Shown one piece after another: positions 39,663-42,227 of a stretch of 64,000 bases of DNA (within the stretch, counting starts at the first letter, position 1; each line of letters begins with the position of its first letter). Position numbers and translations under genes: made by a program. Source of the DNA: Rhodoluna sp. (lineage in GTDB: Bacteria > Actinomycetota > Actinomycetes > Actinomycetales > Microbacteriaceae); assembly GCA_024641095.1 (NCBI GenBank), contig JAHEDR010000001.1:124001-188000 (forward strand). Direction: 5' to 3'. The notes under the pieces were generated by a model. That model was not told the origin of the DNA. It ran no database searches and worked only from the letters and a program-made list of their open reading frames with translations.

Positions 39663-40298
39663 CTAGACGGTAGTTTTCTGGCCAGGTTCCAGGTACTCAA
39701 ATTCTCCGCCGCCGGCCTCGGTCACCATTTTCACGCGACCATTATTTAGCTCGTGACCAATTGCGCTCAGGTGCACATTGTGAGTTGCAAAAGATCTCTT
39801 TGGCTTAACCGCAGTTACAAAATCCATCACGTCACCTATTTTGAGCCAAGGCGCCGAGGTTGGGCAGGCAAGCAGCTCAACCGCACGATCAGGTTGGGTG
39901 TAACTATCGCCAGGGTAGTAAAGCTTTGAGTTAATCATTACGCCGCAGTTTTGAATCAGCGGAATCGAGCGGTGAATCTCGGCGTGCATGTCGCCAAAGA
40001 ATTCCAAGGTGAATTGGCCGTGCTGAAAATAATCTCCGTCGTGCACGGCAGTGGTCTTGAAGGCGGCAAGACGCTTGCAGACTTCGTCGGTGCCATAAAT
40101 TACTGCATCCGGGTTCTTTTTCAAGATTGCATCAAGTTGCGCCTCGCTGCAGTGATCATCGTGCATGTGGGTAATCACAATGGCAACTACATTCTGAAAA
40201 TCGCCTACCGGGCGAGTGTATGAACCCGGGTCCAGAATTACTCGTTCGCCCTGTTCTTCAAGAACCAAACATGCGTGTTCTAGCTTTGTGATCTCCAT
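39663..40298 (-). CDS. Metallo-beta-lactamase-fold hydrolase
   Basis: This 211-residue cytoplasmic protein of the MBL superfamily has the metal motif ITHMHDDHC (HxHxDH type). Further likely ligands are in GDMHAEIH and YYPGDSYTQ, and a C-terminal histidine is in RSFATHNVHLS. The short form without extra domains resembles UlaG-like/YycJ-type hydrolases. The substrate is unknown. It is divergent from the pseudo-ATPase gene by 40 bp and converges on the small membrane protein with abutting stop codons. Confidence 0.85.
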   Translation of the reverse strand: MEITKLEHACLVLEEQGERVILDPGSYTRPVGDFQNVVAIVITHMHDDHCSEAQLDAILKKNPDAVIYGTDEVCKRLAAFKTTAVHDGDYFQHGQFTLEFFGDMHAEIHRSIPLIQNCGVMINSKLYYPGDSYTQPDRAVELLACPTSAPWLKIGDVMDFVTAVKPKRSFATHNVHLSAIGHELNNGRVKMVTEAGGGEFEYLEPGQKTTV

Positions 40299-40326: not shown

Positions 40327-40332
40327 TAAGAT
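40327..40332 (+). promoter_or_regulatory. Candidate leaderless -10 for the pseudo-ATPase gene
   Basis: TAAGAT ends 6 nt before the GTG at 40339. It supports this GTG as the true start. Confidence 0.48.
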
Positions 40333-40338
40333 TTTGAT

Positions 40339-41310
40339 GTGGGGAACGAACAAAACAAACTAAGCGCAGGTACGCGCGTTCGTGCTGCCCAATTTGGCCT
40401 AACCATCACAGACCCAGCCCAGTTTGAGCTGGCTGCCGATGTTGATGTGGTGCTATTCAATAAGGCGGGTACTCTAACCGCTCCGGTCAGACGCGTGGTC
40501 AAATCCCGCTTGGCCTACAGCTCGCCGCTAAGTACTCAGAGCGAGTTGCTTGCACTTGCTGCCGGGGTAGAAATTCACACCCAGCACCCAATCGCACAAT
40601 CAATTGTTGAAGAAGCCCAGCGCCAAAAGCTTGAGCTGCCAAATGTCTTTGACGTTCGCAGCATTCCAGGCTTGGGTGTTGCCGGTGTGCTTGATGGAGA
40701 GACCATCGTTATTGGTGGCCCTGGTCTGCTCACCTCAAGAAACATCCCAATCTACGTAGACGACTTGGTGCGCGCCGATGCCGCTAATGGAATTGGTAAC
40801 ACCGTGGTGTACGTGATTCAGAATTCTCAATTGATCGGCATGATCGAGCTAAGTGAAACCGTCTTGCCCGAGGCAATTGATGTGGTGAATCAACTTCACG
40901 CGCGCAAGATTCGCGTTGCAATGGTTACCGGTGATGCCACCGGTGTTGCCCAGCACGTAGCTGACCAACTTCGCATTGCAGAGTTTTTCGCCGAGATCGT
41001 GCCAAGTCGCAAAGCAGATGTGGTTCGCAAGCTTAAGTCCGACGGCTCTAAAGTTGCCGTGGTTGGTCATCTTGAAATTGATGCCTTGGCGCTTTCGGAA
41101 GCCCAGGTGGCAATCGCAATTGATTCTGATGGCAGCTCTGAGTCCACGGCGGCAGGACTGCACCTAACCAACACCGATGCCAAGAGTGTTCTAAAGACCA
41201 TCATGCTTTCTAAGCGTGCAAAAAATATCGGTACTCAAAAAATCTTGTCAATCGTAGCCGCAGGCTTCCTCGCGGTTGGCCTAGTGGTGGTTATTCTTAG
41301 TTCCCTATGA
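40339..41310 (+). CDS. Degenerate P1B-type ATPase-like protein (P and N domains only)
   Basis: This intact 323-residue frame corresponds to the phosphorylation and nucleotide-binding domains of a heavy-metal P-type ATPase, with one C-terminal membrane helix (about 303-322) and none of the upstream transport helices. The invariant DKTGT is NKAGT (Asn41 replaces the phosphorylated Asp). The GDGxND hinge is GHLEID (His244, Ile247). The N-domain HP motif (His83-Pro84), the GLGVAG loop, TGD (197-199) and the PSRK segment are kept. Catalysis by the usual phosphoenzyme route should be impossible, so a regulatory or binding role is likely. The stop overlaps the lipid kinase start by 4 nt. Confidence 0.85.
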   Translation: MGNEQNKLSAGTRVRAAQFGLTITDPAQFELAADVDVVLFNKAGTLTAPVRRVVKSRLAYSSPLSTQSELLALAAGVEIHTQHPIAQSIVEEAQRQKLELPNVFDVRSIPGLGVAGVLDGETIVIGGPGLLTSRNIPIYVDDLVRADAANGIGNTVVYVIQNSQLIGMIELSETVLPEAIDVVNQLHARKIRVAMVTGDATGVAQHVADQLRIAEFFAEIVPSRKADVVRKLKSDGSKVAVVGHLEIDALALSEAQVAIAIDSDGSSESTAAGLHLTNTDAKSVLKTIMLSKRAKNIGTQKILSIVAAGFLAVGLVVVILSSL

Positions 41311-42227
41311 AGCGTTTAGGTGTCATCGTGAATCCGTCGGCGGGTAATGGTGCCGGGCGCATTGAAGGCCACCAGGCCATCAGCGAGTTGCAACGAGAAA
41401 GCGAAGTGCTTGACCTAACCGGTAACTCCATGAAAGACAGCGAGCGAATCGCTCGAGCTGCAATCGCGGACCAACTTCTTGATGGTCTGGTGGTTGTGGG
41501 CGGCGACGGCATGGCGCACCTTGGCGTAAATCTTTGTGCGGAATCTGGAATTCCACTTGGCATCATTGCAGCCGGTACCGGCAACGATGCGGCTCGCGCA
41601 CTTGGCTTGCCAATTGGTGATGCGGTTGCTGGGGCCAGAGCGGTGCTAAATAATCTTCGTCAGCCACGAGTGGTTGATTTGGTAAAGGCCACAAGCTCCA
41701 CCGGAGACTTTTATTACTTCGGCAGCATATCGGCTGATTTCGTTTCGCTGGTAAACCACCGTGCCAATTCTTGGAAGTGGCCAAAGGGACCAAACCGCTA
41801 CAAACTGGCCATGCTTGCCGAATTGGCATCGTTCAAGCCAATCAAATACGTTGCCGAGATTGACGGAGTTCATAAAGAATTCGAGGCCATGCTTTGCTCG
41901 GTTGCTAACTCGCCTTTTTTTGGCGGCGGCATGAAGGTTGCGCCAAATGCCAAGATCGACGACGGCCAACTGGATGTTTTTATCGTCAACAAGATTTCTA
42001 GATTTGAACTCATCAAAGTTTTCCCACGGGTTTACACCGGCGACCACATCACGCACCCCGCAGTGGAGTTCATTCGTGCCAAGAAAATCACGCTGAAGCC
42101 ATCGGTGCCTATGCCGGCCTATTCAGACGGCGAACCGGTGGGCCTTGCGCCCTTTACCGCCGAAATCGCACCGGGGGCTCTCAAGGTCTACGCAACTAGC
42201 GCACTATCGGCATCTGTGGCAGAATAG
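41307..42227 (+). CDS. Diacylglycerol kinase-family lipid kinase (DagK/YegS type)
   Basis: This 306-residue protein is of the DAGK catalytic family. It begins GVIVNPSAGNGAGR and has the nucleotide-binding GGDGM (usually GGDGT) and GTGNDAARALGLP, plus the C-terminal DGQLDVFIV and a region with PMPAYSDGEPVG. It phosphorylates a lipid such as diacylglycerol, or takes part in sugar-lipid synthesis; the substrate is not determined by sequence. Translation is coupled to the degenerate P-type ATPase-like gene by an ATGA overlap. A tRNA-Glu gene follows after 15 bp. Confidence 0.9.
   Translation: MKRLGVIVNPSAGNGAGRIEGHQAISELQRESEVLDLTGNSMKDSERIARAAIADQLLDGLVVVGGDGMAHLGVNLCAESGIPLGIIAAGTGNDAARALGLPIGDAVAGARAVLNNLRQPRVVDLVKATSSTGDFYYFGSISADFVSLVNHRANSWKWPKGPNRYKLAMLAELASFKPIKYVAEIDGVHKEFEAMLCSVANSPFFGGGMKVAPNAKIDDGQLDVFIVNKISRFELIKVFPRVYTGDHITHPAVEFIRAKKITLKPSVPMPAYSDGEPVGLAPFTAEIAPGALKVYATSALSASVAE

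Follow-up and report, generated by a model that had tools for sequence, protein, structure and literature searches.

A probable membrane-tethered pseudo-pump of CopB descent at a conserved gene slot in Rhodoluna

The window is a 64,000-nucleotide stretch of a Rhodoluna sp. genome (Microbacteriaceae; GCA_024641095.1, contig JAHEDR010000001.1, positions 124,001 to 188,000 of the forward strand). It encodes a homologue of the heavy-metal P1B-ATPases in which residues required for catalysis and transport have been lost. This protein is considered, with moderate confidence, to be a non-transporting, membrane-tethered pseudo-pump whose retained function resides in the ATP-binding domain. Comparable degenerate forms recur in separate lineages of the genus and are under selection at the protein level. 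Genomes are referred to by G numbers, with G000 being that of the window, and G000, G010, G006 and G019 constitute the short clade.

The reading frame starts with a GTG codon and contains no internal stops, in agreement with the uninterrupted 323-residue frame described in an earlier note on this DNA. The P and N domains of a heavy-metal P-type ATPase, with HP, TGD and a PxxK-like segment, had also been proposed and are borne out by profiles and motifs. The NCBIfam profile for heavy-metal P1B-ATPases, TIGR01525, aligns residues 15-315 with profile positions 228-530 of 560 (E 6.8e-53), with a score of 180 bits that lies below the family cut-off of 346 bits. Pfam Hydrolase PF00702, representing the HAD superfamily fold, is matched at 73.4 bits, above its cut-off of 26.4. 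The PxxK segment reads PSRK (residues 222-225). The replacement of DKTGT by NKAGT and of GDGxND by GHLEID was confirmed by motif reading, with Asn41 occupying the place of the nucleophilic Asp of HAD superfamily enzymes. The N domain with its HP and GxG nucleotide site is present (alignment, sequence search, model). The A domain with TGE is absent, and the entire region of the CPx metal site (CPH for CopB) is missing (alignment). As the divergent upstream hydrolase starts 40 bases from the frame, there is no room upstream for an A domain or helices 1-6; the suggestion that the transport helices are missing and that one C-terminal helix is left holds by alignment and hydropathy.

Table 1. Features of the pseudo-P1B-ATPase locus, in positions of the window.
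Feature	Position	Strand	Basis
Pseudo-P1B-ATPase, 323 aa, frame intact	40339..41310	+	ORF call, profile matches, dN/dS
TAAGAT, -10-like box 6 nt 5' of the start codon (predicted leaderless promoter)	40327..40332	+	Sequence; kept in G010, G006, G019
NKAGT replacing DKTGT, residues 41-45; phosphorylated Asp to Asn	40459..40473	+	Motif reading, alignment
HP of N domain, residues 83-84, kept	40585..40590	+	Alignment, sequence search
GLG, residues 111-113, the GxG nucleotide loop of N domain, kept	40669..40677	+	Alignment, sequence search
TGD of P domain, residues 197-199, kept	40927..40935	+	Motif reading, alignment
Lys225 in PxxK segment of P domain, kept	41011..41013	+	Motif reading, alignment
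GHLEID replacing GDGxND, residues 243-248; first Asp and Asn gone, last Asp stays	41065..41082	+	Motif reading, alignment
Single C-terminal hydrophobic helix, residues ~305-323, tail anchor	41251..41307	+	Hydropathy; model helix 281-322
YegS/diacylglycerol-kinase-like lipid kinase, ATGA overlap (context, not shown as part of a system)	41307..42227	+	ORF call, profiles, loci
Divergent metallo-beta-lactamase-fold hydrolase (context)	39663..40298	-	ORF call, profile, loci

The structure prediction called for earlier yielded a confident AlphaFold2 model (29 rows; pLDDT 88.3, pTM 0.77) with a predicted CopB-like fold. Its best PDB match is 3skx, the ATP-binding domain of Archaeoglobus fulgidus CopB, with a TM-score of 0.88 by target length and 0.72 by query length, and the same domain is the top match of a phmmer sequence search (E 3.5e-39). 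The likeness covers the P/N sequence, the predicted fold and the HP, GxG, TGD and PxxK motifs. In contrast to a CopB-type P1B-ATPase, the window protein is without the catalytic Asp, GDGxND, the A domain, the CPH site and the transport helices. A model of the 504-residue form of G005, which keeps the Asp, was built on 5 rows only and, with a mean pLDDT of 38.5, carries no weight here. For ATP7B, excerpts of PMC3203118 support contacts of G1099 and G1101 with ATP and dispute a direct ATP contact of H1069, the His of the HP motif. The HP His is lost in G078, G082, G012 and G081 (alignment).

The short orthologues of G010, G006 and G019 are 72%, 66% and 50% identical to the window protein. Asn41 is conserved in three of the four short proteins, with Gly in G019, and the altered stretch NKAGTLTAP is identical among G000, G010 and G006. 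His244, the conservation of which had also been put forward as a check, is not kept (H, R, R, R). The predicted leaderless promoter was likewise recovered as a TAAGAT box conserved across the short clade: G000, G010 and G006 share TAAGAT, a spacing of 6 nt and GTG, and G019 has TAAGAT, 7 nt and ATG. The box also precedes a start in G009, G068 and the canonical G062, and so looks inherited. An assembly artefact is unlikely, as the one-contig genome G006 has the same short form. In a search of 249 genomes of the family, the best hit from any other genus reaches 41% identity, and among the matches listed none of the frames from other genera is shorter than 480 codons. The short form looks confined to Rhodoluna. 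The P/N domains of proteins from Saccharibacteria/Patescibacteria MAGs (loci L121, L123, L127, L130) are 38-41% identical to the window protein; these are possibly CopB-type pumps transferred into small genomes.

Within Rhodoluna, a genus of minute bacteria living in fresh water, the gene occupies a conserved slot between the hydrolase and the lipid kinase. A homologue search at E <= 1e-40 matched 47 of the 67 genus genomes, including that of the window. Together with the window, the 46 loci fetched gave 47 rows, which were sorted by motifs on the alignment into 19 canonical (CPH, TGE, DKTGT and GDG[IV]ND; the contig of G072 ends before CPH) and 28 degenerate. The upstream hydrolase is found in 43 of the 46 fetched loci and the contig ends first in the other 3. 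Most loci have gltX upstream and an MFS gene and leuC downstream, several with extra genes between. In the 20 genomes for which no strong match was obtained, the kinase and hydrolase were looked for instead, and 9 further loci were then fetched. These contained degenerate copies in G073, G011 and G020 (the last running into a contig end) and a canonical copy, cut by a contig end, in G004. In G003, G060, G076 and G032 the interval from hydrolase to kinase measures ~55-190 bases and contains no ATPase match, and the gene is thus dispensable in some lineages. Over the 67 genomes, the slot holds a canonical pump in 20, a degenerate copy with an open frame in 31 and no ATPase in 4, and could not be judged in 12 (G024 and 11 others).

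CPH is present in none of the 28 degenerate rows (alignment). The catalytic Asp is kept in 8 of them (G005, G007, G028, G063, G002, G059, G017, G068); the CPx site of these rows retains its Pro (APQ, SPQ, SPA), and the A domain or its TGE Glu is missing. TGE is kept in the degenerate G008, G033, G088, G013, G066, G083 and G074. None of the 28 degenerate frames tabulated is interrupted; they run for 323-678 codons, that of G074 reaching the contig end. Canonical pumps such as G067 and G029 belong to the same gene family and occupy the same slot, with P/N-domain identities to the window protein of 52-53% and 42%, respectively. They differ in being complete pumps: CPH, TGE, DKTGT and GDGxND are all present, and the N-terminus is rich in His.

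A Cys-rich, metallothionein-like stretch (CxCxHNPGGECHCPPNECKC) precedes the His-rich tail in 10 of 18 full-length canonical pumps (G034, G026, G025, G065, G069, G014, G079, G085, G070, G071) and in 0 of the 28 degenerate rows. In G076, where the ATPase is absent, a Cys-rich ORF of 28 residues that resembles a metallothionein (L095:3262-3348) lies between the hydrolase and kinase genes.

A P/N-domain tree of 53 rows, 5 of them outgroup, rejects a single clade for all degenerate rows (p-AU 3e-6), which rules out one origin for all such forms. On the gene tree, which long branches make unsure in places, six irreversible losses are counted (5-8 over 200 bootstrap trees); with returns allowed the count is also six changes, of which starred branches force 4. 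On a locus tree from four flanking genes, the degenerate state originates 8 times and absence 3 times. This tree covers 53 of 56 genomes (G066, G072 and G004 had too little sequence) and was built by a quick method with a midpoint root; the irreversible counts presuppose a canonical ancestor. By these trees, degeneration arose about 5-8 times independently, with different lesions. A single origin for the 13 rows nearest the window is compatible with the data (p-AU 0.485), leaving one origin or several for these rows. The close species G022 and G073 have degenerate forms of 382 codons, as against a complete pump (757-codon frame) in G034; these two forms probably share one origin, and the change may be recent. 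The Asp was lost to Asn in 5 of 8 lineages (analyst's judgement from the alignment and locus tree), a pattern that is suggestive only, since Asn is an easy single-base change from Asp. Other replacements are Glu, Ala or Pro, and Thr, with one Gly within the short clade.

The neighbouring kinase offers one alternative, namely that the ATPase remnant is its regulatory subunit, a role already raised in the earlier note along with coupling of the two genes by ATGA. The frames do overlap in the window and in G019, but in G010 and G006 a gap of ~10 nt separates the ATPase from the inferred kinase start. Adjacency, which had been proposed for a check as an invariable feature, holds for the window and for all but two (G059 and G017) of the fetched loci, hence for 44 of 46. 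The kinase also adjoins the ATPase at all 19 canonical loci, so the adjacency is older than the degeneration. Moreover, either gene occurs without the other: the one-contig genomes G059 and G017 carry a degenerate ATPase and have no lipid kinase match at E <= 1e-20, and the four genomes lacking the ATPase have the kinase. The co-occurrence test therefore speaks against a specific link, and regulation of the kinase is judged unlikely.

Selection was assessed by pairwise maximum-likelihood dN/dS. For the P/N region the ratio was below 0.1 in 31 of 31 degenerate pairs (LRT against 1 at least 120). Whole-ORF values were 0.013-0.165 in 14 of 14 degenerate pairs (LRT against 1 at least 129) and 0.003-0.049 in 5 canonical pairs, with 0.012-0.055 for gltX or leuC in the same pairs where available; many to most of the dS values are saturated, and four degenerate pairs have dS < 1.3. 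In these four the ratio is 0.161 (G033/G020), 0.110 (G059/G017), 0.083 (G008/G088) and 0.091 (G078/G012), and the whole-ORF ratio is 1.7-9 times that of gltX. As the values are well under 1 yet above those of gltX, constraint acts on these proteins, but more weakly than on a core gene. Catalytic residues have been lost (alignment) and purifying selection has been kept (dN/dS), the combination that marks a pseudoenzyme. Neither disabled frames nor a dN/dS near 1, as in a decaying pseudogene, were found in the degenerate rows.

In the clades with both halves, constraint has shifted away from the membrane part and onto the ATP-binding one. Membrane distance divided by P/N distance gives 1.47-3.55 for the six degenerate clades with a membrane half; for four canonical groups the result is 0.92-1.44, the ranges almost touching at 1.47 (G033/G008/G088) and 1.44 (G067/G062/G069). 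With N-tails left out, the ratios become 1.55-3.57 and 0.78-1.10, respectively. The membrane half is missing altogether in the short clade. The ratio of N- to P-domain distance lies at 1.72-1.94 in the canonical groups and at 0.33-1.23 across seven degenerate clades; for G000, G010 and G006 alone it is 1.66, near canonical, and falls to 1.14 once G019 is added. Five residues that the analyst chose as the N-domain site (E78, H83, G111, G113, G126) survive, on average, in 25 of the 28 degenerate rows, compared with 17.8 over all 79 columns that 17 or more of 18 canonical rows conserve (permutation p 0.006). In the P domain, Asp41 is kept in 8 of 28 rows and Pro250 in 1. D199 of TGD is kept in 25, D248 in 22, K225 in 21 and D244 in 19, so that loss in this domain is not across the board.

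These results bear on slow decay, in which a dying copper pump would be seen at different stages before its deletion from streamlined genomes. The gradient within the genus from full pumps through truncated forms to absence, the long stem branches of the degenerate clades and the elevation over gltX in unsaturated pairs would fit such a process. The earlier note had held that close relatives with DKTGT and all helices would indicate decay; such relatives exist, G067 among them, but decay is excluded by dN/dS and the open frames. The identity of NKAGTLTAP in three genomes and a constraint that has shifted, not uniformly relaxed, also count against it, and it is considered very unlikely. Repurposing over decay, as originally suggested, is supported by purifying selection in the short clade and six other degenerate clades, across ~5-8 losses.

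Equally improbable is that the protein modulates a second metal pump of its cell, acting as a dominant or decoy subunit. A P1B-ATPase search of 24 genomes did find one more full-length P1B-ATPase in G000 (609-codon frame) and three further ones above the cut-off in G006. However, G008, G012, G020 and G073 (92-97% complete) carry the degenerate gene and have no P1B match above the family cut-off, so control of another metal pump is not general. Least probable of all is an active enzyme of altered chemistry, either a HAD phosphatase or a pump for another substrate, for although eight degenerate rows keep the catalytic Asp and the Pro of their CPx site, these rows lack the A domain or its TGE Glu, and the window clade has Asn or Gly as nucleophile and no first Asp of GDGxND.

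Under the preferred pseudo-pump reading, the ancestor of Rhodoluna had a CopB-type copper P1B-ATPase in the slot flanked by the hydrolase and the lipid kinase, and the window protein descends from it in place. The descendant has lost the CPH metal site and the tail that bound metal, along with the A domain, helices 1-6, the Asp that is phosphorylated and the GDGxND hinge. The cytosolic ATP-binding unit (the N domain with TGD and PxxK of the P domain) has stayed under purifying selection, with a predicted tether to the membrane through the one C-terminal helix. Transport was presumably lost before phosphorylation, because no degenerate row has CPH and eight still have the Asp. The protein may bind ATP or another adenine nucleotide without being phosphorylated, and may serve as a nucleotide-dependent regulator or scaffold for a partner. 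In other P-type ATPases, putting Asn in place of the Asp makes ATP binding tighter, a point on which no passage was found in the open-access literature. Nucleotide sensing is a plausible role and the likeliest candidate. The loss of CPH and of the His/Cys-rich tail makes a metal sensor, as once proposed, unlikely.

Pseudoenzymes are known from many enzyme families. MJ0968 of Methanocaldococcus is a soluble P-type ATPase-like HAD protein with P/N domains and no transport domain. Unlike the window protein, such proteins keep the catalytic Asp and hydrolytic activity and have no membrane anchor. The guanylate cyclases of apicomplexans carry fused P4-ATPase-like domains, that of PfGCbeta being described as degenerated in excerpts of PMC6592433. 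These resemble the present case in placing a P-type ATPase fold in a signalling protein and differ in being eukaryotic, of P4 type and fused to a cyclase. Searches of the open-access literature brought up no bacterial pseudo-P-type ATPase described as being under selection, the review PMC10654040 being covered by key words.

A bolder reading is possible, if doubtful: at one Rhodoluna locus, separate lineages would have turned an ion pump convergently into an ATP-locked nucleotide sensor of the membrane, losing the metal site first and phosphorylation second, while selection moved to the N domain. If so, the change from Asp to Asn would leave an ATP-binding site that cannot be phosphorylated, and Rhodoluna would provide a natural series from pump to sensor. 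Rhodoluna lacicola MWH-Ta8 is culturable and editable, according to PMC4156110 and PMC11577799. Within one genus, the syntenic series runs from a complete pump through a dead but constrained ATP-binding protein to absence, and it makes the role of the ATP-binding half without the pump directly testable.
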